This document shows positions 28,901 to 63,956 of a stretch of 64,000 nt of DNA, one piece after another (position 1 is the stretch's first letter; each line of letters begins with the position of its first letter). The translations under genes were made by a program, and so were the position numbers. The DNA comes from Pristionchus mayeri (Eukaryota > Nematoda > Chromadorea > Rhabditida > Neodiplogasteridae). Location of the stretch: positions 20,678,365 to 20,742,364 of the forward strand of contig BTRK01000006.1 in NCBI GenBank assembly GCA_036245805.1, given 5' to 3'. The notes under the pieces are model-generated. The model was not told the origin of the DNA and did no database searches. It saw only the letters and a list, made by a program, of their open reading frames with translations.

Positions 28901-30378
28901 GACACCTGAGAAGGGCCCTGCGCGGACCCTCCCCAGTAACTACAACGTCTTCTTTCTTCTCCAGCAGCGTCATCGGAGCTTTCTTGTGTTTGCGTATGCC
29001 TATGTCCTATTTGATCTCATATTGTTGATAAATGTGTTTACAATGTTATTGTTCCGTTCATTTGTTGGCTTATTCATCTTTCATTTGTTTTTGTCTTTGT
29101 AAATATGTTAATGTGGTGCGTAAGATATTTTAGGAGTGCCTAGTTGATGTAGATCACGCCATGTTCCTCTCCTGATTCTAATCTTCAGATGCGCAGGCTC
29201 CATTCCGTGTACTCACCCGAAAATAAGAGAACCGGAAAACTAAGCCCTTTTTGGCTGGGAAAGGGTCTGAGAATCCTATAGGTGTCCTCACTCGACACCC
29301 GAGAAGGGCCCTACGCGGACCCTCCCCAGTAACTACAACGTCTTCTTTCTTCTCCAGCAGCGTCATCGGAGCATTCTTGTGTTTGCGTATGCCTATGTCC
29401 TATTTGATCTCATATTGTTGATAAATGTGTTTACAATGTTATTGTTTTGTTCATTTGTTGGCTTATTCAACTTTCATTTGTTTTTGTCTTTGTAAATATG
29501 TTAATGTGGTGTGTAAGATATTTTAGGAGTGCCTAGTTGATGTAGATCACGCCATGTTCCTCTCCTGATTCTAATCTTCAGATGCGCAGGCTCCATTCCG
29601 TGTACTTACCCGAAAATAAGAGAACCGGAAAACGAAGCCCTTTTTGGCTGGGAAAAGGTCTGAGAGTCCTATAGGTGTCCTCACTCGACACCTGAGAAGG
29701 GCCCTACGCGGACCTCCCCAGTAACTACAACGTCTTCTTTATTCTCCAGCAGCGTCATCGGAGCATTTTTTTTTGAGTTTAAAGAAGGAGTGTCAGCAAA
29801 GTAAAATTTAAACGGTTGGGACTCTTGCACAGAAAAATCGTCCCTATCAAGCGGAAACTGTAGACTTTCCAGACTGAACTTTACGCAGCAATCCTTGCTA
29901 ACCACAGTGTTTGCGACTCCCTGCGCAACTCACTTTCTATTTTCGCTTTTTTTGGTTAAATTCATTCTTCCCGTGATATTTTGTTTCTCTTGTGTGCGTT
30001 TTTTGTCACAACTGATTAATAAATTACCCTAAACGCTGCAGTTGAAAGTGCTAATTTCTTCAAATCTGACAATACGTGATTTGTGCACTTAGGATAGTTC
30101 ACTTTGCTTCCACTTAGTTTTATTTTGCCTTACTCGTTTAAGGGTTACTAAATACTATGTCATTTAATGATAGCTTATTTAAACGCTGAATAAAAATTGG
30201 CCAGTTCACGATTATGTTGATTTTTTTGTAGGCTAAAAGCTGGTTGTTGAAATCCGTTGTTTCATTATTTCGCTTTTTAGTCGTTAAAAGGGCGTTCAGA
30301 GGATGGTTTCTTGTTGCTTCGTTGTTGCTTGTATGTTGTTGTGTTCAATATCCCCTTATTACATTCTTTTTTCATCAG

Positions 30379-33623: not shown

Positions 33624-33629
33624 TTTATT
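33624..33629 (-). terminator. Poly(A) signal AATAAA of the giant gene
   Basis: The minus strand reads AATAAA here, about 63 nt after the proposed stop codon at 33692. The distance fits a short nematode 3' untranslated region. Confidence 0.5.
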
Positions 33630-33691
33630 CAGAATCGGGGGTTTGTAAATATTTCCTGTTTACTCTCGATGGATGTGCATCACTGCAAAGG

Positions 33692-36600
33692 TCACTTCAA
33701 ATCAGCAATGGTCGGGACAATTACCGGGACGATATGAAGCATCACTCCATCTAAAAGCATTTCATGCAAGAAAATGGCGGCAACACGCGCCCGTTCGATG
33801 CCCCCAAATGTGACTGTCATCGCAGATCCGCTCTGAACATAGCATTCAAACACTTATTCGTCATGAGAAAGACAAAAGAAAGGAAAAAATGCTCTCGCAT
33901 TAACATGGTCTCTCTAGCGAGTCGCTCTAAAGGCTAATTTTCTTGCATTACGCAATATTATATTATATTTCCCATTCAGTAGACTAAGCACCTACATCGT
34001 AGACGTGGGTTCCCAGTGCCCCCAGCAGTCGAACGACGTAGTCAAGAAATTCTGTAAATTAGAAATTTGCCTGACACATAACTGGGGGACATCTCACGAG
34101 ATAGACCATTGTGGAATGACCGAAGGACGAACGAAGGAGCGGCAATCTCGTATTCGTTGAGAGGAGCAGCTTAAACAATAAAATGCGTGAGAATTGGTTT
34201 GAAGATGCCCACCCGCTTCCGGGAACTCGCAGAGATAACGCCGCCCGTAGACAAGTCGATTGCGGGCGAGAGTATCCGCAAACTGAACAAGAGCATTTGG
34301 AATTCCAGTAAAATATAGCAACAATCAGCTCATGGAAATGCAAATCCTTCAAAGTAAGGACCACGAAACCTAGACATATGATAACCTAGACGAATTCTGC
34401 ACTTACCGCCGGGTTGGCAGCACGGATCAATACTCGAGGGTTGCCTTCCCGATCAGCGATCAATCGCATCTCGTCGATGCCCGGGAAAACTGTGTTGATT
34501 AGCCGATGTCCCTCGGCAAAATCGATGTGGTCGATCAGCAGGAATACGCCTCAAGATCACAATCTCACATCATAAGTATAGGTCACTGTACTTCGAATTC
34601 TCTGCTGATGCACAGCTGCATCCGGTGCCGCCCTTTGTGAACTCTGTAAGAATGCGATCCAGAAGAAGCATTGAAAACATCCTTTAGAATCTTTCTAAGG
34701 AAAATGTATTAGGTTGACTAGAAAGTTCTGTCGCATTTTGTGGTCTCATTGTCAAGTCAATCCGTTCGTTCTCTTTTCTCTGTCGATATGAGCCGCCCCA
34801 TTTTTCAAGTTAAGGAGAGGTACACAGGGGTGTTTTAGATATGTATTAGATTTGGTAATCCCAATCAGTCTAAACCAGATAATTGCACAAGTTCTCCAAT
34901 TAGTGTTCTTGATTTCACTACATAATTATATTCGTATCATTCTCCGCTTTCAAATCGAAGGCTACATCGATGTTCAAAAATACCATTCTTCGACCAGATA
35001 TGTGGAAAACGCGTTGATTCATACTATTCCCCAACTTTATATATGGATATCATGGATATTGTCTGTGTTCAGTACTACCACAATTTCAAGCTCCAAATCG
35101 AAAGGACCCATCCAAGACGTGATGTTTTCATCCTCCCACTCAACATGGCATGTGCCTTTTCCAAATGATCTTCACTTCCTGGGATGGCCTGCTATGACTA
35201 ATACCTTCTACTGCTCTTAGCATATTCCTTGACCATTGCTCATTTTAACTATCACTTGATCGCGGGTCTGGTTAACTTCTAAGAGGAGCAGGAAATCAAA
35301 GATCAGGAGTCTTTGAAACGCAGTTAGTCAAATTGTTCGAATCATAGCTCTCATAATATTGACAGTGAGGTATCCGTAACGGTATAAATTTGTGGCAGGG
35401 AACTATCCCTAGCATTCCTTATAATACTCAAAGGATGCATCCGTTTGAACTGTATTACTGCGCAAAAGTTTAAATACGAAAAATACGACAAAACTTTCTA
35501 GTCAGCCTGATAGCATGACGCTACAGATAATCACAGTGATTTACAATCATGGTTATGTAAATCAGAAGTAATACGATTTTTTGTAGCTGCTAAAAATATT
35601 AAAAAAGAGCTAACTAGCAAAATAATAGCATACCTCAAAGAGAAGCCGCTGCGTGAGCGACCACAATGCTCGTCGATGAGACCGTGCGGAGCGGAGAGTC
35701 TGCAATGTATCGTGTCTTGCAGCAGGACTAATAAATTGCGTCTATCACCCACCGTTTGATGGACTATCTGAGAGATCTGCTGAGAGAGAATCTAAAAAGT
35801 GATGAATAATGTTTTCAATTAACTAGACAATGACCAAACCTGCCAGAGAGGAACTTGCGCCTGCTGAATATTCGCAAGTGACACGGTTTGAGTAGAGGCG
35901 GTTGTAGTTGATGTCGGAAGCGTGGCAGATGATGTAATGACGACCACTCGGGAAGGAGCGGATGTCTGTGGAAATACTGGGATTCTTTGCAGTATTCTCC
36001 GAACTCACTGTGGATGTCAGTGATGTTGGAAGAGTGGCAGATGATGTAGTGACGACCACTCGGGAAGGAGCCGATGTCTGTGGAAATACTGGGATTCTTT
36101 GCAGTATTCTCCGAACTCACTGTGGATATCAGTGATGTTGGAAGAGTGGCAGATGATGTAGTGACAACCAATCGGGAAGGAGCCGATGTCTGTGGAAATA
36201 CTGGGATTCTTTACAGTATTCTCCGAACTCACTGTGGATATCAGTGATGTTGGAAGAGTGGCAGATGATGTAGTGACGACCACTCGGGAAGGAGCCGATG
36301 TCTGTGGAAATACTGGGATTCTTTGCAGTATTCTCCGAACTCACTGTGGATATCAGTGATGTTGGAAGAGTGGCAGATGATGTAGTGACGACCACTCGGG
36401 AAGGAGCCGATGTCTGTGGAAATACTGGGATTCTTTGCAGTATTCTCCGAACTCACTGTGGACATCAGTGATGTTGGAAGAGTGACAGATGATGTAGTGA
36501 CGACCACTCGGGAAGGAGCCGATGTCTGTGGAAATACTGGGATTCTTTGCAGTATTCTCCGAACTCACTGTGGACATCAGTGATGTTGGAAGAGTGACAG

Positions 36601-39600
36601 ATGATGTAGTGACGACCACTCGGGAAGGAGCCGATGTCTGTGGAAATACTGGGATTCTTTGCAGTATTCTCCGAACTCACTGTGGACATCAGTGATGTTC
36701 GAAGAGTGGCAGATGATGTAGTGACGACCACTCGGGAAGGAGCCGATGTCTGTGGAAATACTGGGATTCTTTGAAGTATTCTCCGAACTCACTGTGGATA
36801 TCAGTGATGTTGGAAGAGTAGCAGATGATGTAGTGACGACCACTCGGGAAGGAGCCGATGTCTGTGGAAATACTGGGATTCTTTGCAGTATTCTCCGAAC
36901 TCACTGTGGATATCAGTGATGTTGGAAGAGTGGCAGATGATGTAGTGACGACCACTCGGGAAGGAGCCGATGTCTGTGGAAATACTGGGATTCTTTGCAG
37001 TATTCTCCGAACTCACTGTGGATATCAGTGATGTTGGAAGAGTGGCAGATGATGTAGTGACGAGCACTCGCGAAGGAGACGATGTCTGTGGAAATACTGG
37101 GATTCTTTGCAGTATTCTCCGAACTCACTGTGGATATCAGTGATGTTGGAAGAGTGGCAGATGATGTAGTGACGACCACTCAGGAAGGAGCCGATGTCTG
37201 TGGAAATACTGGGATTCTTTGCAGTATTCTCCGAACTCACTGTGGATATCAGTGATGTTGAAAGAATGGCAGATGATGTAGTGACGACCACTCGGGAAGG
37301 AGCCGATGTCTGTGGAAATACTGGGATTCTTTGTAGTATTCTCCGAACTCACTGTGGATATCAGTGATGTTGGAAGAGTGGCAGATGATGTAGTGACGAC
37401 CACTCGGGAAGGAGCCGATGTCTGTGGAAATACTGGGATTCTTTGCAGTATTCTCCGAACTCACTGTGGATATCAGTGATGTTGGAAGAGTGGCAGATGA
37501 TGTAGTGACGAGCACTCGGGAAGGAGCCGATGTCTGTGAAAATACTGGGATTCTTTGCAGTATTCTCCGAACCCACTGTGGATATCAGTGATGTTGGAAG
37601 AGTGGCAGATGATGTAGTGACGACCACTCGGGAAGGAGCCGATGTCTGTGGAAATACTGCGATTCTTTACAGTATTCTCCGAACACACTGTGGATATCAG
37701 TGATGTTGGAAGAGTGGCAGATGATGTAGTGACGACCACTCGGGAAGGAGCCGATGTCTGTGGAAATACTGGGATTCTTTGCAGTATTCTCCGAACTCAC
37801 TGTGGATATCAGTGATGTTGGAAGAGTGGCAGATGATGTAGTGACGACCACTCAGGAAGGAGCCGATGTCTGTGGAAATACTGGGATTCTTTGCAGTATT
37901 CTCCGAACTCACTGTGGATATCAGTGATGTTGAAAGAATGGCAGATGATGTAGTGACGACCACTCGGGAAGGAGCCGATGTCTGTGGAAATACTGGGATT
38001 CTTTGTAGTATTCTCCGAACTCACTGTGGATATCAGTGATGTTGGAAGAGTGGCAGATGATGTAGTGACGACCACTCGGGAAGGAGCCGATGTCTGTGGA
38101 AATACTGGGATTCTTTGCAGTATTCTCCGAACTCACTGTGGATATCAGTGATGTTGGAAGAGTGGCAGATGATGTAGTGACGAGCACTCGGGAAGGAGCC
38201 GATGTCTGTGAAAATACTGGGATTCTTTGCAGTATTCTCCGAACCCACTGTGGATATCAGTGATGTTGGAAGAGTGGCAGATGATGTAGTGACGACCACT
38301 CGGGAAGGAGCCGATGTCTGTGGAAATACTGCGATTCTTTGCAGTATTCTCCGAACCCACTGTGGATATCAGTGATGTTGGAAGAGTGGCAGATGATGTA
38401 GTGACGACCACTCGGGAAGGAGCCGATGTCTGTGGAAATACTGCGATTCTTTACAGTATTCTCCGAACACACTGTGGATATCAGTGATGTTGGAAGAGTG
38501 GCAGATGATGTAGTGACGACCACTCGGGAAGGAGCCGATGTCTGTGGAAATACTGGGATTCTTTGCAGTATTCTCCGAACTCACTGTGGATATCAGTGAT
38601 GTTGGAAGAGTGGCAGATGATGTAGTGACGACCACTCAGGAAGGAGCCGATGTCTGTGGAAATACTGGGATTCTTTGCAGTATTCTCCGAACTCACTGTG
38701 GATATCAGTGATGTTGAAAGAATGGCAGATGATGTAGTGACGACCACTCGGGAAGGAGCCGATGTCTGTGGAAATACTGGGATTCTTTGTAGTATTCTCC
38801 GAACTCACTGTGGATATCAGTGATGTTGGAAGAGTGGCAGATGATGTAGTGACGACCACTCGGGAAGGAGCCGATGTCTGTGGAAATACTGGGATTCTTT
38901 GCAGTATTCTCCGAACTCACTGTGGATATCAGTGATGTTGGAAGAGTGGCAGATGATGTAGTGACGAGCACTCGGGAAGGAGCCGATGTCTGTGAAAATA
39001 CTGGGATTCTTTGCAGTATTCTCCGAACCCACTGTGGATATCAGTGATGTTGGAAGAGTGGCAGATGATGTAGTGACGACCACTCGGGAAGGAGCCGATG
39101 TCTGTGGAAATACTGCGATTCTTTACAGTATTCTCCGAACACACTGTGGATATCAGTGATGTTGGAAGAGTGGCAGATGATGTAGTGACGACCACTCGGG
39201 AAGGAGCCGATGTCTGTGGAAATACTGGGATTCTTTGCAGTATTCTCCGAACTCACTGTGGATATCAGTGATGTTGGAAGAGTGGCAGATGATGTAGTGA
39301 CGACCACTCGGGAAGGAGCCGATGTCTGTGGAAATACTGGGATTCTTTGCAGTATTCTCCGAACTCACTGTGGATGTCAGTGATGTTGGAAGAGTGGCAG
39401 ATGATGTAGTGACGACCACTCGGGAAGGAGCCGATGTCTGTGGAAATACTGGGATTCTTTGTAGTATTCTCCGAACTCACTGTGGATATCAGTGATGTTG
39501 GAAGAGTGGCAGATGATGTAGTGACGACCACTCGGGAAGGAGCCGATGTCTGTGGAAATACTGGGATTCTTTGCAGTATTCTCCGAACTCACTGTGGATA

Positions 39601-42600
39601 TCAGTGATGTTGGAAGAGTGGCAGATGATGTAGTGACGACCACTCGGGAAGGAGCCGATGTCTGTGGAAATACTGGGATTCTTTGCAGTATTCTCCGAAC
39701 TCACTGTGGATGTCAGTGATGTTGGAAGAGTGGCAGATGATGTAGTGACGACCACTCGGGAAGGAGCCGATGTCTGTGGAAATACTGGGATTCTTTGTAG
39801 TATTCTCCGAACTCACTGTGGATATCAGTGATGTTGGAAGAGTGGCAGATGATGTAGTGACGACCACTCGGGAAGGAGCCGATGTCTGTGGAAATACTGC
39901 GATTCTTTACAGTATTCTCCGAACTCACTGTGGATATCAGTGATGTTGGAAGAGTGGCAGATGATGTAGTGACGACCACTCGGGAAGGAGCCGATGTCTG
40001 TGGAAATACTGGGATTCTTTGCAGTATTCTCCGAACTCACTGTGGATATCAGTGATGTTGGAAGAGTGGCAGATGATGTAGTGACGAGCACTCGGGAAGG
40101 AGCCGATGTCTGTGGAAATACTGCGATTCTTTACAGTATTCTCCGAACTCACTGTGGATATCAGTGATGTTGGAAGAGTGGCAGATGATGTAGTGACGAC
40201 CACTCGGGAAGGAGCCGATGTCTGTGGAAATACTGGGATTCTTTGCAGTATTCTCCGAACTCACTGTGGATATCAGTGATGTTGGAAGAGTGGCAGATGA
40301 TGTAGTGACGAGCACTCGGGAAGGAGCCGATGTCTGTGGAAATACTGCGATTCTTTACAGTATTCTCCGAACTCACTGTGGATATCAGTGATGTTGGAAG
40401 AGTGGCAGATGATGTAGTGACGACCACTCGGGAAGGAGCCGATGTTTGTGGAAATACTGGGATTCTTTACAGTATTCTCCGAACTCACTGTGGATATCAG
40501 TGATGTTGGAAGAGTGGCAGATGATGTAGTGACGATCACTCGGGAAGGAGCCGATGTCTGTGGAAATACTGGGATTCTTTGCAGTATTCTCAGAACTCAC
40601 TGTGGATATCAGTGATGTTGAAAGAATGGCAGATGATGTAGTGACGACCACTCGGGAAGGAGCCGATGTCTGTGGAAATACTGGGATTCTTTGTAGTATT
40701 CTCCGAACTCACTGTGGATATCAGTGATGTTGGAAGAGTGGCAGATGATGTAGTGACGACCACTCGGGAAGGAGCCGATGTCTGTGGAAATACTGGGATT
40801 CTTTGCAGTATTCTCCGAACTCACTGTGGATATCAGTGATGTTGGAAGAGTGGCAGATGATGTAGTGACGACCACTCGGGAAGGAGCCGATGTCTGTGGA
40901 AATACTGGGATTCTTTGTAGTATTCTCCGAACTCACTGTGGATATCAGTGATGTTGGAAGAGTGGCAGATGATGTAGTGACGACCACTCGGGAAGGAGCC
41001 GATGTCTGTGGAAATACTGCGATTCTTTACAGTATTCTCCGAACTCACTGTGGATATCAGTGATGTTGGAAGAGTGGCAGATGATGTAGTGACGACCACT
41101 CGGGAAGGAGCCGATGTCTGTGGAAATACTGCGATTCTTTACAGTATTCTCAGAACTCACTGTGGATATCAGTGATGTTGAAAGAGTGGCAGATGATGTA
41201 GTGACGACCACTCGGGAAGGAGCCGATGTCTGTGGAAATACTGGGATTCTTTGCAGTATTCTCCGAACTCACTGTGGATATCAGTGATGTTGGAAGAGTG
41301 GCAGATGATGTAGTGACGACCACTCGGGAAGGAGCCGATGTCTGTGGAAATACTGCGATTCTTTACAGTATTCTCCGAACTCACTGTGGATATCAGTGAT
41401 GTTGGAAGAGTGGCAGATGATGTAGTGACGACCACTCGGGAAGGAGCCGATGTCTGTGGAAATACTGCGATTCTTTACAGTATTCTCAGAACTCACTGTG
41501 GATATCAGTGATGTTGAAAGAGTGGCAGATGATGTAGTGACGACCACTCGGGAAGGAGCCGATGTCTGTGGAAATACTGGGATTCTTTGCAGTATTCTCC
41601 GAACTCACTGTGGATATCATTGATGTTGGAAGAGTGGCAGATGATGTAGTGACGACCACTCGGGAAGGAGCCGATGTCTGTGGAAATACTGGGATTCTTT
41701 GCAGTATTCTCCGAACTCACTGTGGATATCAGTGATGTTGGAAGAGTGGCAGATGATGTAGTGACGACCACTCGGGAAGGAGCCGATGTCTGTGAAAATA
41801 CTGGGATTCTTTGCAGTATTCTCCGAACTCACTGTGGATATCAGTGATGTTGGAAGAGTGGCAGATGATGTAGTGACGACCACTCGGGAAGGAGCCGATG
41901 TCTGTGGAAATACTGGGATTCTTTGCAGTATTCTCCGAACTCACTGTGGATATCAGTGATGTTGGAAGAGTGGCAGATGATGTAGTGACGACCACTCGGG
42001 AAGGAGCCGATGTCTGTGGAAATACTGGGATTCTTTGCAGTATTCTCCGAACTCACTGTGGATATCAGTGATGTTGGAAGAGTGGCAGATGATGTAGTGA
42101 CGACCACTCGGGAAGGAGCCGATGTCTGTGGAAATACTGGGATTCTTTGCAGTATTCTCCGAACTCACTGTGGATATCAGTGATGTTGGAAGAGTGGCAG
42201 ATGATGCAGTGACGACCACTCGGGAAGGAGCCGATGTCTGTGAAAATACTGCGATTCTTTACAGTATTCTCCGAACTCACTGTGGATATCAGTGATGTTG
42301 GAAGAGTGGCAGATGATGTAGTGACGACCACTCGGGAAGGAGCCGATGTCTGTGGAAATACTATGATTCTTTGCAGTATTCTCCGAACTCACTGTGGATA
42401 TCAGTGATGTTGGAAGAGTGGCAGATGATGCAGTGACGACCACTCGGGAAGGAGCCGATGTCTGTGGAAATACTATGATTCTTTGCAGTATTCTCCGAAC
42501 TCACTGTGGATATCAGTGATGTTGGAAGAGTGGCAGATGATGCAGTGACGACCACTCGGGAAGGAGCCGATGTCTGTGGAAATACTGGGATTCTTTGCAG

Positions 42601-45600
42601 TATTCTCCGAACTCACTGTGGATATCAGTGATGTTGGAAGAGTGGCAGATGATGTAGTGACGACCACTCGGGAAGGAGCCGATGTCTGTGGAAATACTGC
42701 GATTCTTTACAGTATTCTCCGAACTCACTGTGGATATCAGTGATGTTGGAAGAGTGGCAGATGATGTAGTGACGACCACTCGGGAAGGAGCCGATGTCTG
42801 TGGAAATACTGCGATTCTTTACAGTATTCTCAGAACTCACTGTGGATATCAGTGATGTTGAAAGAGTGGCAGATGATGTAGTGACGACCACTCGGGAAGG
42901 AGCCGATGTCTGTGGAAATACTGGGATTCTTTGCAGTATTCTCCGAACTCACTGTGGATATCATTGATGTTGGAAGAGTGGCAGATGATGTAGTGACGAC
43001 CACTCGGGAAGGAGCCGATGTCTGTGGAAATACTGGGATTCTTTGCAGTATTCTCCGAACTCACTGTGGATATCAGTGATGTTGGAAGAGTGGCAGATGA
43101 TGTAGTGACGACCACTCGGGAAGGAGCCGATGTCTGTGAAAATACTGGGATTCTTTGCAGTATTCTCCGAACTCACTGTGGATATCAGTGATGTTGGAAG
43201 AGTGGCAGATGATGTAGTGACGACCACTCGGGAAGGAGCCGATGTCTGTGAAAATACTGCGATTCTTTACAGTATTCTCCGAACTCACTGTGGATATCAG
43301 TGATGTTGGAAGAGTGGCAGATGATGTAGTGACGACCACTCGGGAAGGAGCCGATGTCTGTGGAAATACTGGGATTCTTTGCAGTATTCTCCGAACTCAC
43401 TGTGGATATCAGTGATGTTGGAAGAGTGGCAGATGATGCAGTGACGACCACTCGGGAAGGAGCCGATGTCTGTGAAAATACTGCGATTCTTTACAGTATT
43501 CTCCGAACTCACTGTGGATATCAGTGATGTTGGAAGAGTGGCAGATGATGTAGTGACGACCACTCGGGAAGGAGCCGATGTCTGTGGAAATACTATGATT
43601 CTTTGCAGTATTCTCCGAACTCACTGTGGATATCAGTGATGTTGGAAGAGTGGCAGATGATGCAGTGACGACCACTCGGGAAGGAGCCGATGTCTGTGGA
43701 AATACTATGATTCTTTGCAGTATTCTCCGAACTCACTGTGGATATCAGTGATGTTGGAAGAGTGGCAGATGATGCAGTGACGACCACTCGGGAAGGAGCC
43801 GATGTCTGTGGAAATACTGGGATTCTTTGCAGTATTCTCCGAACTCACTGTGGATATCAGTGATGTTGGAAGAGTGGCAGATGATGTAGTGACGACCACT
43901 CGGGAAGGAGCCGATGTCTGTGGAAATACTGCGATTCTTTACAGTATTCTCCGAACTCACTGTGGATATCAGTGATGTTGGAAGAGTGGCAGATGATGTA
44001 GTGACGACCACTCGGGAAGGAGCCGATGTCTGTGGAAATACTGCGATTCTTTACAGTATTCTCAGAACTCACTGTGGATATCAGTGATGTTGAAAGAGTG
44101 GCAGATGATGTAGTGACGACCACTCGGGAAGGAGCCGATGTCTGTGGAAATACTGGGATTCTTTGCAGTATTCTCCGAACTCACTGTGGATATCATTGAT
44201 GTTGGAAGAGTGGCAGATGATGTAGTGACGACCACTCGGGAAGGAGCCGATGTCTGTGGAAATACTGGGATTCTTTGCAGTATTCTCCGAACTCACTGTG
44301 GATATCAGTGATGTTGGAAGAGTGGCAGATGATGTAGTGACGACCACTCGGGAAGGAGCCGATGTCTGTGAAAATACTGGGATTCTTTGCAGTATTCTCC
44401 GAACTCACTGTGGATATCAGTGATGTTGGAAGAGTGGCAGATGATGTAGTGACGACCACTCGGGAAGGAGCCGATGTCTGTGGAAATACTGGGATTCTTT
44501 GCAGTATTCTCCGAACTCACTGTGGATATCAGTGATGTTGGAAGAGTGGCAGATGATGTAGTGACGACCACTCGGGAAGGAGCCGATGTCTGTGGAAATA
44601 CTGGGATTCTTTGCAGTATTCTCCGAACTCACTGTGGATATCAGTGATGTTGGAAGAGTGGCAGATGATGTAGTGACGACCACTCGGGAAGGAGCCGATG
44701 TCTGTGGAAATACTGGGATTCTTTGCAGTATTCTCCGAACTCACTGTGGATATCAGTGATGTTGGAAGAGTGGCAGATGATGTAGTGACGACCACTCGGG
44801 AAGGAGCCGATGTCTGTGGAAATACTGCGATTCTTTACAGTATTCTCCGAACTCACTGTGGATATCAGTGATGTTGGAAGAGTGGCAGATGATGTAGTGA
44901 CGACCACTCGGGAAGGAGCCGATGTCTGTGGAAATACTGCGATTCTTTACAGTATTCTCAGAACTCACTGTGGATATCAGTGATGTTGAAAGAGTGGCAG
45001 ATGATGTAGTGACGACCACTCGGGAAGGAGCCGATGTCTGTGGAAATACTGGGATTCTTTGCAGTATTCTCCGAACTCACTGTGGATATCATTGATGTTG
45101 GAAGAGTGGCAGATGATGTAGTGACGACCACTCGGGAAGGAGCCGATGTCTGTGGAAATACTGGGATTCTTTGCAGTATTCTCCGAACTCACTGTGGATA
45201 TCAGTGATGTTGGAAGAGTGGCAGATGATGTAGTGACGACCACTCGGGAAGGAGCCGATGTCTGTGGAAATACTGGGATTCTTTGCAGTATTCTCCGAAC
45301 TCACTGTGGATATCATTGATGTTGGAAGAGTGGCAGATGATGTAGTGACGACCACTCGGGAAGGAGCCGATGTCTGTGGAAATACTGGGATTCTTTGCAG
45401 TATTCTCCGAACTCACTGTGGATATCAGTGATGTTGGAAGAGTGGCAGATGATGTAGTGACGACCACTCGGGAAGGAGCCGATGTCTGTGAAAATACTGG
45501 GATTCTTTGCAGTATTCTCCGAACTCACTGTGGATATCAGTGATGTTGGAAGAGTGGCAGATGATGTAGTGACGACCACTCGGGAAGGAGCCGATGTCTG

Positions 45601-51600: not shown

Positions 51601-54600
51601 AGTGGCAGATGATGTAGTGACGACCACTCGGGAAGGAGCCGATGTCTGTGGAAATACTGGGATTCTTTGCAGTATTCTCCGAACTCACTGTGGATATCAG
51701 TGATGTTGGAAGAGTGGTAGATAATGTAGTGACGACCACTCGGGAAGGAGCCGATGTCTGTGGAAATACTGGGATTCTTTGCAGTATTCTCCGAACTCAC
51801 TGTGGATATCAGTGATGTTGGAAGAGTGGCAGATGATGTAGTGACGACCACTCGGGAAGGAGCCGATGTCTGTGGAAATACTGGGATTCTTTGCAGTATT
51901 CTCCGAACTCACTGTGGATATCAGTGATGTTGGAAGAGTGGCAGATGATGTAGTGACGAGCACTCGGGAAGGAGCCGATGTCTGTGGAAATACTGGGATT
52001 CTTTGCAGTATTCTCCGAACTCACTGTGGATATCAGTGATGTTGGAAGAGTGGCAGATGATGTAGTGACGACCACTCGGGAAGGAGCCGATGTCTGTGGA
52101 AATACTATGATTCTTTGCAGTATTCTCCGAACTCACTGTGGATATCAGTGATGTTGGAAGAGTGGCAGATGATGCAGTGACGACCACTCGGGAAGGAGCC
52201 GATGTCTGTGGAAATACTGGGATTCTTTGCAGTATTCTCCGAACTCACTGTGGATATCAGTGATGTTGGAAGAGTGGCAGATGATGTAGTGACGACCACT
52301 CGGGAAGGAGCCGATGTCTGTGGAAATACTGGGATTCTTTGCAGTATTCTCCGAACTCACTGTGGGTATCAGTGATGTTGGAAGAGTGGCAGATGATGTA
52401 GTGACGAGCACTCGGGAAGGAGCCGATGTCTGTGGAAATACTGGGATTCTTTGCAGTATTCTCCGAACTCACTGTGGATATCAGTGATGTTGGAAGAGTG
52501 GCAGATGATGTAGTGACGACCACTCGGGAAGGAGCCGATGTCTGTGGAAATACTGGGATTCTTTGCAGTATTCTCCGAACTCACTGTGGATATCAGTGAT
52601 GTTGGAAGAGTGGCAGATGATGTAGTGACGACCACTCGGGAAGGAGCCGATGTCTGTGGAAATACTGCGATTCTTTACAGTATTTTCCGAACTCACTGTG
52701 GATATCAGTGATGTTGGAAGAGTAGCAGATGATGTAGTGACGACCACTCGGGAAGGAGCCGATGTCTGTGGAAATACTGGGATTCTTTGCAGTATTCTCC
52801 GAACTCACTGTGGATATCAGTGATGTTGGAAGAGTGGCAGATGATGTAGTGACGACCACTCGGGAAGGAGCCGATGTCTGTGGAAATACTGGGATTCTTT
52901 GCAGTATTCTCCGAACTCACTGTGGATATCAGTGATGTTGGAAGAGTGGCAGATGATGTAGTGACGACCACTCGGGAAGGAGCCGATGTCTGTGGAAATA
53001 CTGCGATTCTTTACAGTATTTTCCGAACTCACTGTGGATATCAGTGATGTTGGAAGAGTGGCAGATGATGTAGTGACGACCACTCGGGAAGGAGCCGATG
53101 TCTGTGGAAATACTGGGATTCTTTGCAGTATTCTCCGAACTCACTGTGGATATCAGTGATGTTAGAAAAGTGGCAGATGATGTAGTGACGACCACTCGGG
53201 AAGGAGCCGATGTCTGTGGAAATACTGGGATTCTTTGCAGTATTCTCCGAACTCACTGTGGATATCAGTGATGTTGGAAGAGTGGCAGATGATGTAGTGA
53301 CGACCACTCGGGAAGGAGCCGATGTCTGTGGAAATACTGGGATTCTTTGTAGTATTCTCCGAACTCACTGTGGATATCAGTGATGTTGGAAGAGTGGTAG
53401 ATAATGTAGTGACGACCACTCGGGAAGGAGCCGATGTCTGTGGAAATACTGGGATTCTTTGCAGTATTCTCCGAACTCACTGTGGATATCAGTGATGTTG
53501 GAAGAGTGGCAGATGATGTAGTGACGAGCACTCGGGAAGGAGCCGATGTCTGTGGAAATACTGGGATTCTTTGTAGTATTTTCCGAACTCACTGTGGATA
53601 TCAGTGATGTTGGAAGAGTGGCAGATGATGTAGTGACGACCACTCGGGAAGGAGCCGATGTCTGTGGAAATACTGGGATTCTTTGCAGTATTCTCCGAAC
53701 TCACTGTGGATATCAGTGATGTTGGAAGAGTGGTAGATAATGTAGTGACGACCACTCGGGAAGGAGCCGATGTCTGTGGAAATACTGGGATTCTTTGCAG
53801 TATTCTCCGAACTCACTGTGGATATCAGTGATGTTGGAAGAGTGGCAGATGATGTAGTGACGAGCACTCGGGAAGGAGCCGATGTCTGTGGAAATACTGG
53901 GATTCTTTGTAGTATTCTCCGAACTCACTGTGGATATCAGTGATGTTGGAAGAGTGGCAGATGATGTAGTGACGACCACTCGGGAAGGAGCTGATGTCTG
54001 TGGAAATACTGCGATTCTTTACAGTATTCTCCGAACTCACTGTGGATATCAGTGATGTTGGAAGAGTGGCAGATGATGTAGTGACGAGCACTCGGGAAGG
54101 AGCCGATGTCTGTGGAAATACTGGGATTCTTTGTAGTATTCTCCGAACTCACTGTGGATATCAGTGATGTTGGAAGAGTGGCAGATGATGTAGTGACGAC
54201 CACTCGGGAAGGAGCCGATGTCTGTGGAAATACTGCGATTCTTTACAGTATTTTCCGAACTCACTGTGGATATCAGTGATGTTGGAAGAGTGGCAGATGA
54301 TGTAGTGACGACCACTCGGGAAGGAGCCGATGTCTGTGGAAATACTGGGATTCTTTGCAGTATTCTCCGAACTCACTGTGGATATCAGTGATGTTAGAAA
54401 AGTGGCAGATGATGTAGTGACGACCACTCGGGAAGGAGCCGATGTCTGTGGAAATACTGGGATTCTTTGCAGTATTCTCCGAACTCACTGTGGATATCAG
54501 TGATGTTGGAAGAGTGGCAGATGATGTAGTGACGACCACTCGGGAAGGAGCCGATGTCTGTGGAAATACTGGGATTCTTTGTAGTATTCTCCGAACTCAC

Positions 54601-57600
54601 TGTGGATATCAGTGATGTTGGAAGAGTGGTAGATAATGTAGTGACGACCACTCGGGAAGGAGCCGATGTCTGTGGAAATACTGGGATTCTTTGCAGTATT
54701 CTCCGAACTCACTGTGGATATCAGTGATGTTGGAAGAGTGGCAGATGATGTAGTGACGAGCACTCGGGAAGGAGCCGATGTCTGTGGAAATACTGGGATT
54801 CTTTGTAGTATTTTCCGAACTCACTGTGGATATCAGTGATGTTGGAAGAGTGGCAGATGATGTAGTGACGACCACTCGGGAAGGAGCCGATGTCTGTGGA
54901 AATACTGGGATTCTTTGCAGTATTCTCCGAACTCACTGTGGATATCAGTGATGTTAGAAAAGTGGCAGATGATGTAGTGACGACCACTCGGGAAGGAGCC
55001 GATGTCTGTGGAAATACTGGGATTCTTTGCAGTATTCTCCGAACTCACTGTGGATATCAGTGATGTTGGAAGAGTGGCAGATGATGTAGTGACGACCACT
55101 CGGGAAGGAGCCGATGTCTGTGGAAATACTGGGATTCTTTGTAGTATTCTCCGAACTCACTGTGGATATCAGTGATGTTGGAAGAGTGGTAGATAATGTA
55201 GTGACGACCACTCGGGAAGGAGCCGATGTCTGTGGAAATACTGGGATTCTTTGCAGTATTCTCCGAACTCACTGTGGATATCAGTGATGTTGGAAGAGTG
55301 GCAGATGATGTAGTGACGAGCACTCGGGAAGGAGCCGATGTCTGTGGAAATACTGGGATTCTTTGTAGTATTTTCCGAACTCACTGTGGATATCAGTGAT
55401 GTTGGAAGAGTGGCAGATGATGTAGTGACGACCACTCGGGAAGGAGCCGATGTCTGTGGAAATACTGGGATTCTTTGCAGTATTCTCCGAACTCACTGTG
55501 GATATCAGTGATGTTAGAAAAGTGGCAGATGATGTAGTGACGACCACTCGGGAAGGAGCCGATGTCTGTGGAAATACTGGGATTCTTTGCAGTATTCTCC
55601 GAACTCACTGTGGATATCAGTGATGTTGGAAGAGTGGCAGATGATGTAGTGACGAGCACTCGGGAAGGAGCCGATGTCTGTGGAAATACTTGGATTCTTT
55701 GCAGTATTCTCCGAACTCACTGTGGATATCAGTGATGTTGGAAGAGTGGCAGATGATGTAGTGACGACCACTCGGGAAGGAGCCGATGTCTGTGGAAATA
55801 CTGCGATTCTTTACAGTATTTTCCGAACTCACTGTGGATATCAGTGATGTTGGAAGAGTGGCAGATGATGTAGTGACGACCACTCGGGAAGGAGCCGATG
55901 TCTGTGGAAATACTGGGATTCTTTGCAGTATTCTCCGAACTCACTGTGGATATCAGTGATGTTGGAAGAGTGGTAGATAATGTAGTGACGACCACTCGGG
56001 AAGGAGCCGATGTCTGTGGAAATACTGGGATTCTTTGCAGTATTCTCCGAACTCACTGTGGATATCAGTGATGTTGGAAGAGTGGCAGATGATGTAGTGA
56101 CGAGCACTCGGGAAGGAGCCGATGTCTGTGGAAATACTGGGATTCTTTGTAGTATTCTCCGAACTCACTGTGGATATCAGTGATGTTGGAAGAGTGGCAG
56201 ATGATGTAGTGACGACCACTCGGGAAGGAGCTGATGTCTGTGGAAATACTGCGATTCTTTACAGTATTCTCCGAACTCACTGTGGATATCAGTGATGTTG
56301 GAAGAGTGGCAGATGATGTAGTGACGAGCACTCGGGAAGGAGCCGATGTCTGTGGAAATACTGGGATTCTTTGTAGTATTCTCCGAACTCACTGTGGATA
56401 TCAGTGATGTTGGAAGAGTGGCAGATGATGTAGTGACGACCACTCGGGAAGGAGCCGATGTCTGTGGAAATACTGCGATTCTTTACAGTATTTTCCGAAC
56501 TCACTGTGGATATCAGTGATGTTGGAAGAGTGGCAGATGATGTAGTGACGACCACTCGGGAAGGAGCCGATGTCTGTGGAAATACTGGGATTCTTTGCAG
56601 TATTCTCCGAACTCACTGTGGATATCAGTGATGTTAGAAAAGTGGCAGATGATGTAGTGACGACCACTCGGGAAGGAGCCGATGTCTGTGGAAATACTGG
56701 GATTCTTTGCAGTATTCTCCGAACTCACTGTGGATATCAGTGATGTTGGAAGAGTGGCAGATGATGTAGTGACGACCACTCGGGAAGGAGCCGATGTCTG
56801 TGGAAATACTGGGATTCTTTGTAGTATTCTCCGAACTCACTGTGGATATCAGTGATGTTGGAAGAGTGGTAGATAATGTAGTGACGACCACTCGGGAAGG
56901 AGCCGATGTCTGTGGAAATACTGGGATTCTTTGCAGTATTCTCCGAACTCACTGTGGATATCAGTGATGTTGGAAGAGTGGCAGATGATGTAGTGACGAG
57001 CACTCGGGAAGGAGCCGATGTCTGTGGAAATACTGGGATTCTTTGTAGTATTTTCCGAACTCACTGTGGATATCAGTGATGTTGGAAGAGTGGCAGATGA
57101 TGTAGTGACGACCACTCGGGAAGGAGCCGATGTCTGTGGAAATACTGGGATTCTTTGCAGTATTCTCCGAACTCACTGTGGATATCAGTGATGTTGGAAG
57201 AGTGGTAGATAATGTAGTGACGACCACTCGGGAAGGAGCCGATGTCTGTGGAAATACTGGGATTCTTTGCAGTATTCTCCGAACTCACTGTGGATATCAG
57301 TGATGTTGGAAGAGTGGCAGATGATGTAGTGACGAGCACTCGGGAAGGAGCCGATGTCTGTGGAAATACTGGGATTCTTTGTAGTATTTTCCGAACTCAC
57401 TGTGGATATCAGTGATGTTGGAAGAGTGGCAGATGATGTAGTGACGACCACTCGGGAAGGAGCCGATGTCTGTGGAAATACTGGGATTCTTTGCAGTATT
57501 CTCCGAACTCACTGTGGATATCAGTGATGTTAGAAAAGTGGCAGATGATGTAGTGACGACCACTCGGGAAGGAGCCGATGTCTGTGGAAATACTGGGATT

Positions 57601-60600
57601 CTTTGCAGTATTCTCCGAACTCACTGTGGATATCAGTGATGTTGGAAGAGTGGCAGATGATGTAGTGACGAGCACTCGGGAAGGAGCCGATGTCTGTGGA
57701 AATACTTGGATTCTTTGCAGTATTCTCCGAACTCACTGTGGATATCAGTGATGTTGGAAGAGTGGCAGATGATGTAGTGACGACCACTCGGGAAGGAGCC
57801 GATGTCTGTGGAAATACTGCGATTCTTTACAGTATTTTCCGAACTCACTGTGGATATCAGTGATGTTGGAAGAGTGGCAGATGATGTAGTGACGACCACT
57901 CGGGAAGGAGCCGATGTCTGTGGAAATACTGGGATTCTTTGCAGTATTCTCCGAACTCACTGTGGATATCAGTGATGTTGGAAGAGTGGTAGATAATGTA
58001 GTGACGACCACTCGGGAAGGAGCCGATGTCTGTGGAAATACTGGGATTCTTTGCAGTATTCTCCGAACTCACTGTGGATATCAGTGATGTTGGAAGAGTG
58101 GCAGATGATGTAGTGACGAGCACTCGGGAAGGAGCCGATGTCTGTGGAAATACTGGGATTCTTTGTAGTATTCTCCGAACTCACTGTGGATATCAGTGAT
58201 GTTGGAAGAGTGGCAGATGATGTAGTGACGACCACTCGGGAAGGAGCCGATGTCTGTGGAAATACTGCGATTCTTTACAGTATTCTCCGAACTCACTGTG
58301 GATATCAGTGATGTTGGAAGAGTGGCAGATGATGTAGTGACGAGCACTCGGGAAGGAGCCGATGTCTGTGGAAATACTGGGATTCTTTGTAGTATTCTCC
58401 GAACTCACTGTGGATATCAGTGATGTTGGAAGAGTGGCAGATGATGTAGTGACGACCACTCGGGAAGGAGCCGATGTCTGTGGAAATACTGCGATTCTTT
58501 ACAGTATTTTCCGAACTCACTGTGGATATCAGTGATGTTGGAAGAGTGGCAGATGATGTAGTGACGACCACTCGGGAAGGAGCCGATGTCTGTGGAAATA
58601 CTGGGATTCTTTGCAGTATTCTCCGAACTCACTGTGGATATCAGTGATGTTGGAAGAGTGGCAGATGATGTAGTGACGACCACTCGGGAAGGAGCCGATG
58701 TCTGTGGAAATACTGGGATTCTTTGCAGTATTCTCCGAACTCACTGTGGATATCAGTGATGTTGGAAGAGTGGCAGATGATGTAGTGACGACCACTCGGG
58801 AAGGAGCCGATGTCTGTGGAAATACTGCGATTCTTTACAGTATTTTCCGAACTCACTGTGGATATCAGTGATGTTGGAAGAGTGGCAGATGATGTAGTGA
58901 CGACCACTCGGGAAGGAGCCGATGTCTGTGGAAATACTGGGATTCTTTGCAGTATTCTCCGAACTCACTGTGGATATCAGTGATGTTGGAAAAGTGGCAG
59001 ATGATGTAGTGACGACCACTCGGGAAGGAGCCGATGTCTGTGGAAAAACTGGGATTCTTTGCAGTATTCTCCGAACTCACTGTGGATATCAGTGATGTTG
59101 GAAGAGTGGCAGATGATGTAGTGACGAGCACTCGGGAAGGAGCCGATGTCTGTGGAAATACTGGGATTCTTTGTAGTATTTTCCGAACTCACTGTGGATA
59201 TCAGTGATGTTGGAAGAGTGGCAGATGATGTAGTGACGACCACTCGGGAAGGAGCCGATGTCTGTGGAAATACTGGGATTCTTTGCAGTATTCTCCGAAC
59301 TCACTGTGGATATCAGTGATGTTAGAAAAGTGGCAGATGATGTAGTGACGACCACTCGGGAAGGAGCCGATGTCTGTGGAAATACTGGGATTCTTTGCAG
59401 TATTCTCCGAACTCACTGTGGATATCAGTGATGTTGGAAGAGTGGCAGATGATGTAGTGACGACCACTCGGGAAGGAGCCGATGTCTGTGGAAATACTGG
59501 GATTCTTTGTAGTATTCTCCGAACTCACTGTGGATATCAGTGATGTTGGAAGAGTGGTAGATAATGTAGTGACGACCACTCGGGAAGGAGCCGATGTCTG
59601 TGGAAATACTGGGATTCTTTGCAGTATTCTCCGAACTCACTGTGGATATCAGTGATGTTGGAAGAGTGGCAGATGATGTAGTGACGAGCACTCGGGAAGG
59701 AGCCGATGTCTGTGGAAATACTGGGATTCTTTGTAGTATTTTCCGAACTCACTGTGGATATCAGTGATGTTGGAAGAGTGGCAGATGATGTAGTGACGAC
59801 CACTCGGGAAGGAGCCGATGTCTGTGGAAATACTGGGATTCTTTGCAGTATTCTCCGAACTCACTGTGGATATCAGTGATGTTAGAAAAGTGGCAGATGA
59901 TGTAGTGACGACCACTCGGGAAGGAGCCGATGTCTGTGGAAATACTGGGATTCTTTGCAGTATTCTCCGAACTCACTGTGGATATCAGTGATGTTGGAAG
60001 AGTGGCAGATGATGTAGTGACGACCACTCGGGAAGGAGCCGATGTCTGTGGAAATACTGGGATTCTTTGTAGTATTCTCCGAACTCACTGTGGATATCAG
60101 TGATGTTGGAAGAGTGGTAGATAATGTAGTGACGACCACTCGGGAAGGAGCCGATGTCTGTGGAAATACTGGGATTCTTTGCAGTATTCTCCGAACTCAC
60201 TGTGGATATCAGTGATGTTGGAAGAGTGGCAGATGATGTAGTGACGAGCACTCGGGAAGGAGCCGATGTCTGTGGAAATACTGGGATTCTTTGTAGTATT
60301 TTCCGAACTCACTGTGGATATCAGTGATGTTGGAAGAGTGGCAGATGATGTAGTGACGACCACTCGGGAAGGAGCCGATGTCTGTGGAAATACTGGGATT
60401 CTTTGCAGTATTCTCCGAACTCACTGTGGATATCAGTGATGTTAGAAAAGTGGCAGATGATGTAGTGACGACCACTCGGGAAGGAGCCGATGTCTGTGGA
60501 AATACTGGGATTCTTTGCAGTATTCTCCGAACTCACTGTGGATATCAGTGATGTTGGAAGAGTGGCAGATGATGTAGTGACGAGCACTCGGGAAGGAGCC

Positions 60601-63600
60601 GATGTCTGTGGAAATACTTGGATTCTTTGCAGTATTCTCCGAACTCACTGTGGATATCAGTGATGTTGGAAGAGTGGCAGATGATGTAGTGACGACCACT
60701 CGGGAAGGAGCCGATGTCTGTGGAAATACTGCGATTCTTTACAGTATTTTCCGAACTCACTGTGGATATCAGTGATGTTGGAAGAGTGGCAGATGATGTA
60801 GTGACGACCACTCGGGAAGGAGCCGATGTCTGTGGAAATACTGGGATTCTTTGCAGTATTCTCCGAACTCACTGTGGATATCAGTGATGTTGGAAGAGTG
60901 GTAGATAATGTAGTGACGACCACTCGGGAAGGAGCCGATGTCTGTGGAAATACTGGGATTCTTTGCAGTATTCTCCGAACTCACTGTGGATATCAGTGAT
61001 GTTGGAAGAGTGGCAGATGATGTAGTGACGAGCACTCGGGAAGGAGCCGATGTCTGTGGAAATACTGCGATTCTTTTCAGTATTTTCCGAACTCACTGTG
61101 GATATCAGTGATGTTGGAAGAGTGGCAGATGATGTAGTGACGACCACTCGGGAAGGAGCCGATGTCTGTGGAAATACTGGGATTCTTTGCAGTATTCTCC
61201 GAACTCACTGTGGATATCAGTGATGTTGGAAGAGTGGCAGATGATGTAGTGACGACCACTCGGGAAGGAGCCGATGTCTGTGGAAATACTGGGATTCTTT
61301 GCAGTATTCTCCGAACTCACTGTGGATATCAGTGATGTTGGAAGAGTGGCAGATGATGTAGTGACGAGCACTCGGGAAGGAGCCGATGTCTGTGGAAATA
61401 CTGGGATTCTTTGTAGTATTCTCCGAACTCACTGTGGATATCAGTGATGTTGGAAGAGTGGCAGATGATGTAGTGACGACCACTCGGGAAGGAGCCGATG
61501 TCTGTGGAAATACTGCGATTCTTTGCAGTATTCTCCGAACTCACTGTGGATATCAGTGATGTTGGAAGAGTGGCAGATGATGTAGTGACGAGCACTCGGG
61601 AAGGAGCCGATGTCTGTGGAAATACTGGGATTCTTTGCAGTATTCTCCGAACTCACTGTGGATATCAGTGATGTTGGAAGAGTGGCAGATAATGTAGTGA
61701 CGACCACTCGGGAAGGAGCCGATGTCTGTGGAAATACTGCGATTCTTTACAGTATTTTCCGAACTCACTGTGGATATCAGTGATGTTGGAAGAGTGGCAG
61801 ATGATGTAGTGACGACCACTCGGGAAGGAGCCGATGTCTGTGGAAATACTGGGATTCTTTGCAGTATTCTCCGAACTCACTGTGGATATCAGTGATGTTG
61901 GAAGAGTGGCAGATAATGTAGTGACGACCACTCGGGAAGGAGCCGATGTCTGTGGAAATACTGCGATTCTTTACAGTATTTTCCGAACTCACTGTGGATA
62001 TCAGTGATGTTGGAAGAGTGGCAGATGATGTAGTGACGACCACTCGGGAAGGAGCCGATGTCTGTGGAAATACTGGGATTCTTTGCAGTATTCTCCGAAC
62101 TCACTGTGATTCTTTGCAGTATTCTCCGAACTCACTGTGGATATCAGTGATGTTGGAAGAGTGGCAGATGATGTAGTGACGAGCACTCGGGAAGGAGCCG
62201 ATGTCTATGGAAATACTGGGATTCTTTGTAGTATTCTCCGAACTCACTGTGGATATCAGTGATGTTGGAAGAGTGGCAGATGATGTAGTGACGACCACTC
62301 GGGAAGGAGCCGATGTCTGTGGAAATACTGGGATTCTTTGCAGTATTCTCCGAACTCACTGTGGATATCAGTGATGTTGGAAGAGTGGCAGATGATGTAG
62401 TGACGACCACTCGGGAAGGAGCCGATGTCTGTGGAAATACTGCGATTCTTTACAGTATTTTCCGAACTCACTGTGGATATCAGTGATGTTGGAAGAGTGG
62501 CAGATGATGTAGTGACGACCACTCGGGAAGGAGCCGATGTCTGTGGAAATACTGGGATTCTTTGCAGTATTCTCCGAACTCACTGTGATTCTTTGCAGTA
62601 TTCTCCGAACTCACTGTGGATATCAGTGATGTTGGAAGAGTGGCAGATGATGTAGTGACGAGCACTCGGGAAGGAGCCGATGTCTATGGAAATACTGGGA
62701 TTCTTTGTAGTATTCTCCGAACTCACTGTGGATATCAGTGATGTTGGAAGAGTGGCAGATGATGTAGTGACGACCACTCGGGAAGGAGCCGATGTCTGTG
62801 GAAATACTGGGATTCTTTGCAGTATTCTCCGAACTCACTGTGGATATCAGTGATGTTGGAAGAGTGGCAGATGATGTAGTGACGACCACTCGGGAAGGAG
62901 CCGATGTCTGTGGAAATACTGGGATTCTTTGCAGTATTCTCCGAACTCACTGTGGATATCAGTGATGTTGGAAGAGTGGCAGATGATGTAGTGACGACCA
63001 CTCGGGAAGGAGCCGATGTCTGTGAAAATACTGGGATTCTTTGCAGTATTCTCCGAACTCACTGTGGATATCAGTACTCTCCTCATGATGGGGTGATGAG
63101 TCTAGTTTACTCTCCTCCTCTCACATATTTGCCCCACATCTACATCTGACGAGAGAGGGTGCTGTAGGGATATGAGGGGAGTTTAGGTGAGGAGACTAGA
63201 AGCTTACCCCGTCAGCACTTATCTCAACATTAACTACTTTAAACGCAAATCTCGATGTTCAACGGTACCCAAGATAAGCACACATCCAAAAAGTATCCGA
63301 AAAAATATACACTTTGATCGGTTAAAATTCGTCTCAAAGTCAGGGTGACCTGATGTAACCCTTCCCGACCTTCGGCTCTTTCGTTAGGAGGGGGCAACTC
63401 TGAGCAACCATAAATACGATATTGCAATGCTTACTGAGTTTGTACTCGTGCCTGGTTTCTCCTGCATCCGTTCGCCTCCGAACGTCATGTTCAAGTCGAA
63501 TGCATCATCCTTAAAGTGTATATCCAATTGCCTCTTGAATATGTGAACATCGTGCAAGTAAGTTTTGGAAAACGAAGATATTGTGAAGTAATGAATCTCA

Positions 63601-63956
63601 ACCATTCCATACTCGTATCCTGACTGCCCATGGTGAAGTCATGCTGGGAGTGACTATTCACTGAGTTCATCTTAATCTCATCTCTTCATTCACTCCCATC
63701 CCCTGCCAGCTCTCACCGGTTCATCCTCCTGCTCTACTTCCGGCTGTAGCTGCTGCAGCTGCGGCACTACAGCCACACGTGGGATTGCAATGACAGCACT
63801 CTGCTGCGTGAGACGAGCCGCTCGCCGTGCAACCTTCTGCTCTCTGCTGTATCTCTCCGCTGCCCGTGCGGCGAAGGTGGCGCCCGAAGTAGCCATTGAG
63901 GTGGCTAGCCGAGTCCGCATCGATGGACCATCTGGACGGAGGCACTGGAGGCGAGA
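33692..63956 (-). CDS. Giant gene with 241 tandem 69-nt micro-exons encoding a mucin-like Ser/Thr repeat protein (5' end outside window)
   Basis: Unique 5' exons are 63717-63956 (80 codons, Arg/Ala/Gln-rich) and 63435-63623 (63 codons). Then come 241 repeat exons of 69 nt, all phase 0 (62951-63019 down to 36009-36077). The 3' exons are 35840-35965 (42 codons, the first 18 being a diverged repeat), 35753-35791, 35634-35699, 34592-34643, 34407-34549, 34213-34282, 34098-34169, 33996-34051 and one from 33832 to the stop at 33692-33694. All phases close. AATAAA (minus) at 33624-33629 marks the 3' end. The product is at least ~5,930 aa: a central ~5,540-aa PTS-type domain and a C-terminal ~200-aa globular part (FLLIDHIDFAEGHRLINTV, RNRLVYGRRYLCEF) that I do not recognise. 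Three repeat exons hold TGA and one lacks its acceptor. The alternative is one 27.5-kb intron removing the array, also in frame. Confidence 0.65.
34709..35510. mobile_element. Internally deleted mariner in an intron of the giant gene, 802 bp
   Basis: The ends TTAGGTTGACTAGAAAGTT and (as complement) TCAGGCTGACTAGAAAGTT are flanked by TA (34707-34708, 35511-35512). It sits in the intron 34644-35633; without it that intron would be about 190 nt. On the plus strand, a stretch around 35150-35210 reads LHFLGWPAMTNTFYCS, faintly like the LGWE...HPPYSPD region of mariner transposases, so it is a decayed deletion copy. It is a third mariner family in the window. Confidence 0.85.
37129..38653 (-). other. 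Three repeat exons with in-frame TGA (CGA to TGA)
   Basis: Exons 37129-37197, 37801-37869 and 38585-38653 have CTCAGG in place of CTCGGG on the plus strand, which turns codon 6 (CGA, Arg) into TGA. The change is a CpG transition. The spacing of 6 and 7 units shows one mutation spread by block duplication. Each exon is 69 nt and phase 0/0, so skipping it would keep the frame. They lie near the 3' end of the array as transcribed. Confidence 0.85.
40377..40446 (-). other. Repeat exon with destroyed acceptor (AG to AA)
   Basis: The plus strand has GATGTTTGTGG instead of GATGTCTGTGG, so on the minus strand the intron ends CACAA rather than CACAG. It is the only unit in which I saw the acceptor dinucleotide lost. 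If spliced as modelled, this exon should be skipped, with no frame loss. Confidence 0.8.

Follow-up and report, generated by a model that had tools for sequence, protein, structure and literature searches.

A single-locus tandem array in Pristionchus mayeri whose 112-bp unit may be an exon plus an intron

We analysed 64,000 nucleotides of the genome of the nematode Pristionchus mayeri (G000:C6:20678365-20742364, forward strand; the window, whose first letter is position 1); the genome searched comprised 290.8 Mb, with contigs C1-C6 of 39.7-57.3 Mb each. Between 35966 and 63019, on the minus strand, lies a tandem array of 27,054 bp made of 241 complete units of 69 + 43 nt. A first-pass annotation of this DNA had read the array as 241 in-frame micro-exons and 43-nt introns that join flanking exons into one serine/threonine (Ser/Thr)-rich protein. 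The number, 112-bp length and strand that it gave for the units agree with our alignment, in which they run in register from 63019 to 35966, and the array is real and unusual. The spacing is 112 bp in 238 of 240 steps and 143 bp in the other two. The two 143-bp units (62541-62683 and 62062-62204, minus strand) contain an identical duplication of 31 bp, the sole length change in the array, which we place in the intron part. Units differ from the consensus at 0-4 positions, or at 8 in each 143-bp unit, where the ends are out of register. The 241 units belong to 47 distinct types, and blocks of types are duplicated, the longest comprising 16 units against at most 7 across 200 shuffled orders. Such block duplications are the usual mark of a variable number tandem repeat (VNTR) and suggest, from this one assembly, that copy number may vary between individuals.

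The array is confined to a single locus. A 25-base unit probe, with up to two mismatches allowed, found 241 places in the genome, all 241 of them in the window; with this probe, which more diverged copies could escape, we found no copies at many loci of the kind expected for a dispersed or pericentromeric satellite. The array is preceded by a partial unit (63020-63074, minus strand) consisting of the 12-nt end of the exon part (CTGATATCCACA) and one 43-nt intron part. At the other end, a diverged last copy runs on into unique sequence (35840-35965, minus strand), as the first-pass annotation had described, and may form an exon with the donor CAG/GTTTGG (5.1 bits). As a separate observation, not used as evidence, the minus-strand RNA of the unit (35966-63019) folds better than 200 shuffles (z -2.83, 0/200), a hairpin within the intron part (AATACTG/CAGTATT) contributing to the fold.

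Each unit splits into 69 nt and a 43-nt part that begins with GTGAGT and ends with TTTCCACAG, a division likewise already proposed. The GT is intact in all 241 units and the AG in 240, the acceptor being lost (AG>AA) at the intron end of unit 201 (40446-40447, minus strand). The exon part is 69 nt, a multiple of 3, in every unit. Since 112 is not a multiple of 3, the unit is not read through as a mucin-type single large exon; no long uninterrupted frame crosses the repeats, the unspliced frames listed reaching about 107 codons at most. To judge the splice signals we used 27 introns inferred in this genome's own myosin and kinesin genes; some of these introns are probably still wrong. Nine of the 27 measure 41-49 nt, in line with the earlier statement that 43 nt is a usual size for a nematode intron, and the base composition and pyrimidine content of the array intron lie inside the training range. 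The array donor scores 6.2 bits on the training matrices, and five or six of the 27 training donors score no higher. A sequence that we take to be the nematode spliced leader SL1 is present at 465 exact places in the genome.

The neatness of this split is, however, partly deceptive. Using the array's own scores as thresholds and accepting any in-frame exon/intron solution on either strand, we found a split at least as good in 7.8-8.2% of 112-mers from shuffled, Markov or genomic sequence (3000 of each kind); a second run, on 12000 random genomic 112-mers, gave 852. Because some 7-8% of random 112-mers split equally well, the impression of design is much weaker than it looks, and the split on its own is not strong evidence.

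Each of the 241 units is interrupted by a stop in frame 1. Frame 0 of the exon part, the Ser/Thr-rich frame of the first-pass annotation (TSAPSRVVVTTSSATLPTSLIST), was thought to be the only open one and to be uninterrupted; it is open in 238 units, whereas frame 2 (IGSFPSGRHYIICHSSNITDIH followed by a split Asn codon, N) is open in all 241. The frame 0 stops, all CGA>TGA, lie in units 218 (38636-38638), 225 (37852-37854) and 231 (37180-37182), on the minus strand, where they have been multiplied within a repeated block. In frame 2 the repeats have an NIT sequon in 235 of 241 cases and at least one Cys in 226. The predicted tryptic peptide types of the repeat are HYIICHSSNITDIHNIGSFPSGR in frame 2 and VVVTTSSATLPTSLISTTSAPSR in frame 0.

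Codon usage is gene-like in frame 2 and at background level in frame 0. With a synonymous codon score trained on 1647 codons (G+C content at third codon positions 0.71), frame 2 reaches +12.1 over 23 codons, against a 99th percentile of 10.5 for open 22-codon background windows, and its per-codon score, 0.53, compares with 0.44 in the training genes. Frame 0 scores -5.7, the background median being -6.4. A cruder score, which takes amino-acid content into account, points in the same direction (+10.3 for frame 2 and -13.6 for frame 0). A score of 12.1 in the best open frame has a probability of 0.0002 in the shuffled exon and of 0.018 in Markov sequences, and a good split together with the array-level per-codon score occurred in 1 of 12000 random genomic 112-mers, by a joint criterion picked only after the score was known. 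In each of its two runs, a toy Viterbi gene finder, which over-fitted short exons, read the array in frame 2; its entry scores for frames 0, 2 and 1 (13.5, 11.0 and 15.1) were not used for the choice of frame, eight control stretches ranging from -14 to 105. Phases, splice dinucleotides, codon usage and block structure are read directly from the sequence. Frame 2 is better supported than frame 0, yet the flanking evidence pulls both ways.

Downstream, the last exon, which had been offered as evidence for frame 0, is open in frames 0 and 2 alike; if left unspliced, it continues to a TAG at 35825-35823 in frame 2 and to a TAA at 35821-35819 in frame 0. Two further candidate exons follow on the minus strand. 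The first, of 27 nt (QISQIVHQT, 35753-35779), has sites of 8.6 and 7.6 bits and phase 0/0 in frame 0, and is open in frame 2 too. The second, of 66 nt (TLRSARSHRRALWSLTQRLLFE, 35634-35699; 8.7 and 8.8 bits), is also in phase 0/0 in frame 0; it is open in frame 1 as well, and frame 2 stops at its end. The stretch from 35300 to about 35513 is part of a high-copy dispersed element with at least 39 other matches at 88-95% identity, 40 of 101 candidates having been scored. Farther along, four phase-compatible pieces, a stop at 33694 and an AATAAA at 33629 mark the probable end of a minus-strand gene (33629-34549). The pieces of this gene gave no significant match in Pfam, the Protein Data Bank (PDB), the protein database or the search for paralogues; two places elsewhere in the genome matched at E 0.23 and 0.93, and ferritins, from E 0.07 in the PDB sequence search, were taken as chance.

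Upstream, the exon that the first-pass annotation had placed at 63435-63623 (minus strand, 63 open codons) fares poorly. Measured against the training introns, its acceptor scores about 0 bits and its donor 1.8 bits; its synonymous codon score, -22.4, is below the background median of -13.1, and the cruder codon score lies above the median and below the 95th percentile. A better candidate is a 240-nt exon at 63717-63956 (minus strand; acceptor 9.4, donor 7.9 bits), open for 80 codons in phase 0/0. It can also be read in a second frame, open for 77 codons and stopping just before the donor, which is in phase after a signal-peptide-like exon (MRLLSLLLFSLLLFSMSGVSPRTPARPD) that lies outside the window, upstream of 63956 (L001:602-686, minus strand). 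This exon has a donor of 8.1 bits, an acceptor-like site of 3.5 bits beside its ATG and, at +15.3, a synonymous score above that of every other piece tried; the single base that remains at its end gives the phase required by frame 2. A 39-nt candidate exon just before the array (63101-63063), compatible with frames 0 and 2, was dropped for its acceptor of -7.5 bits. Next to the array, at 63133-63402, is a dispersed repeat with 29 other matches at 69-84% identity. Another minus-strand gene-like stretch, at L001:1514-2130, starts with the signal-peptide-like MNSSILIALLFVASAAAQC, continues with Gly/His/Tyr-rich pieces and has an AATAAA 47 bases past its stop.

Variation within the array was analysed in 239 units, the two 143-bp units being omitted. 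The exon part holds 26 of the 43 variants and the intron part the other 17, at about equal rates per base. A single GT/AG variant was seen and 1.5 were expected. No indel affects the exon part, against 26 exon substitution variants. For a rough neutral control we turned to the neighbouring 392-394-bp tandem repeats, which occur in groups at 15456-29884 with steps of about 1,660 bp between them and 21 anchors. Fifteen copies of this 393-bp array show 18 substitution variants and three gap intervals, from which very rough arithmetic gives 1.5-4 expected exon indels. Because the gaps are few and two of them lie at alignment edges, the absence of exon indels supports an exon only weakly. Other arrays were also noted, with periods of 228/455 bp (L003:5794-9037, about 14 copies of 228 bp), 126 bp (in L003) and 63 bp (a small one in L028); the 393-bp array alone was compared with the unit array. 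The window further contains a match to the Rfam family mir-8364 (1953-2015, both strands) that exceeds the gathering score, a microRNA also named in a paper on Pristionchus pacificus and so in keeping with a diplogastrid source, and a stop-free plus-strand stretch of 414 codons (9351-10592) rich in Ser, Pro and Thr.

Taking these observations together, we give a probability of about 45% to the reading that the array is a VNTR whose 112-bp unit is an exon plus an intron of an orphan minus-strand nematode gene. The exon-plus-intron unit, which survives from the first-pass annotation, is plausible given introns of normal short length, preserved splice dinucleotides and one frame with gene-like codons. 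In this reading, which we infer from the DNA, the array would be transcribed, spliced and translated, and its unit would have originated as real coding sequence. A possible origin is indicated by the partial 5' unit and the diverged last copy: the array may have begun as a tandem duplication spanning the final 12 nt of one exon, its 43-nt intron and the initial 57 nt of the exon that follows, 12 and 57 each being divisible by 3. This would have created a fused 69-nt exon flanked by identical splice sites. The 241 copies would then have been reached by block-wise unequal exchange, a process presumed from the block structure that is observed. Since 69 is a multiple of 3 and the phase is identical in every copy, gain or loss of units, or exon skipping, would be safe for the frame; copy number could therefore grow without cost to the frame, and skipping would be harmless. 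Units that were transcribed would be linked into a series of 23-amino-acid repeats, which in frame 2 would mostly have an N-glycosylation sequon and, as a rule, a single Cys.

Several results weigh against this interpretation. The array acceptor scores 1.3 bits, 25 of the 27 training acceptors scoring higher, and the acceptors at the two ends of the array score 2.2 and 0.9 bits. There is no synonymous excess of the kind left by purifying selection, be it in frame 2 (8 of the 26 exon variants, 6.8 expected, P 0.37), frame 0 (4 of 26, 8.7 expected) or frame 1 (8 of 26, 7.0 expected). Across 57 nt, the last copy and the unit disagree at four positions, of which three are synonymous in frame 0 and one in frame 2, mildly favouring frame 0; the unique tail that follows this copy scores -0.9 in frame 2, near zero. 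The strong 27-nt and 66-nt candidates downstream both suit frame 0, the latter stopping in frame 2, and no AATAAA occurs between the last exon and 33629. Upstream, the signal-peptide-like exon could instead be joined to a strong acceptor at 63956, leading into a frame that stops before the array, and the sole acceptor tried for an exon preceding the partial first unit (63101) is the one at -7.5 bits.

Searches for relatives add to these points, no significant homologue or paralogue having been found for any piece tried. Pfam returned nothing for three assembled pieces; with four proteins it gave seven matches for the frame-2 piece and three for the frame-0 piece, all under the curated cut-offs. 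The best of them, to the GRF-like zinc ribbon family PF23549 (20.1 bits against a cut-off of 27, E 0.0005), we disbelieve, as it covers 10 residues of repetitive sequence. No match appeared at E 1, 0.01 or 0.1 in a protein database whose coverage of nematodes is uncertain. This locus is the only one in the genome matched by the frame-0 pieces (E up to 0.1), by the unique frame-2 pieces (E up to 1) and by exon 63956-63717 in its second reading.

The strongest alternative, to which we assign somewhat less than even odds, is that the array is a plain non-coding minisatellite, intergenic or in a long intron, in which GT, AG and open frames coincide by chance, unequal exchange has multiplied the unit and no exon exists. 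The 7-8% of random 112-mers that qualify agree with it, as do the weak acceptor, the negative searches for homologues and variants that look neutral in every frame and at the splice sites (one GT/AG change, 1.5 expected). So do the multiplication of the frame 0 TGA itself within a block and the dispersed repeats on either side of the array, one at 63133-63402 and the other between 35300 and about 35513. Against it stand a codon usage in frame 2 that is unusual for the background and zero exon indels where the 393-bp array predicts, very roughly, 1.5-4. We regard the exon-plus-intron VNTR as slightly likelier than the plain minisatellite.

Within the exon-plus-intron reading, the full form would be an expressed gene whose roughly 241 near-identical exons of 69 nt, with introns of 43 nt between them, are spliced together into a single mRNA encoding a secreted protein of some 5,600 amino acids, a proposition that we consider doubtful. 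Such a product would start with a signal peptide and continue as 23-amino-acid repeats, mostly with an NIT sequon and one Cys, the number of repeats drifting. The model of the first-pass annotation, a single Ser/Thr-rich frame 0 protein made by joining all 241 micro-exons between 63435 and 35965, is unlikely. All the flanking candidates (63956-63717, 63623-63435, 35965-35840, 35779-35753 and 35699-35634) can indeed be read in phase 0/0, and of the four changes that set the last copy apart from the repeat, three are synonymous in frame 0. Against this, translation would terminate at the TGA codons of units 218, 225 and 231, short of the last exon and with at least 10 exon junctions still downstream; frame 0 codon usage is that of the background, only 4 of 26 exon variants are synonymous in it where 8.7 are expected, and the upstream exon at 63435-63623 has weak splice sites. 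The combination of the Ser/Thr frame, the 241 joined exons and that upstream exon is thus disfavoured. That the copy number is an assembly artefact, a smaller VNTR having been over- or under-expanded, is scarcely credible: at 27 kb the array exceeds many single sequencing reads, but its 47 unit types, whose order along the array is non-random and includes duplicated blocks, resemble a real VNTR.

We recognised no paper describing an array of this kind in the open PMC literature, subscription journals lying outside that coverage. The KIV-2 unit of LPA contains exons and introns. Like it, the array has a tandem unit with an exon-like and an intron-like stretch, here with intact GT in 241/241 and AG in 240/241 units. 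The KIV-2 VNTR, with 5.6 kb per unit and 1-40 units (PMC11462820), is protein-coding and intragenic, and its copy number alters the protein (PMC11462820, PMC11201333, PMC6314250), as it would in our reading of the array. The array differs in its 112-bp unit with one 69-nt exon-like part, its 241 copies, its prediction from sequence and its lack of a kringle or other known domain. In aphids, the megacycle gene has more than 100 microexons, and bicycle genes have very many small internal exons of the same phase that begin at the second codon position, as would those of frame 2 here (PMC9168663); the aphid exons are diverged and their genes are found across aphids, whereas the units of the array are near-identical and without known relatives. 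With general protein searches of the array pieces negative, this likeness is one of gene structure only, an analogy. The earlier view that no described gene has so many near-identical micro-exons is thus qualified by LPA KIV-2 and megacycle, though neither is described, in the portions of these sources available, as having hundreds of near-identical exons.

Other comparisons are looser. Schistosome micro-exon genes share with our reading short exons (3-81 bp) and secreted products; their introns reach 5 kbp, and a tandem array of a single unit goes unmentioned in the accessible part of that account (PMC10526429). The CeRep25B minisatellite, likewise from a nematode, forms tandem repeats in C. 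elegans introns and is linked to alternative splicing, but is a 24-base family clustered on chromosomes III and II and not an exon-like unit at a single locus (PMC4039745). In human genes with internal tandem repeats, expansion of an intragenic minisatellite alters exon-intron structure or the protein, but these are segmental-duplication genes (PMC2812944). In P. pacificus, tandem repeats in coding exons are reported, and the text accessible to us presents no gene of the array's kind (PMC9297572).

If the array is left unspliced, it would illustrate how readily a tandem repeat mimics a micro-exon gene and misleads annotation. A gene of about 241 exons, if real, would have the most near-identical micro-exons among the genes known to us. 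If spliced, the array would provide an extreme natural test of splice-site pairing, with hundreds of identical donors and acceptors 112 nt apart, and likewise of the way in which a gene may grow through a phase-neutral exon-intron unit.

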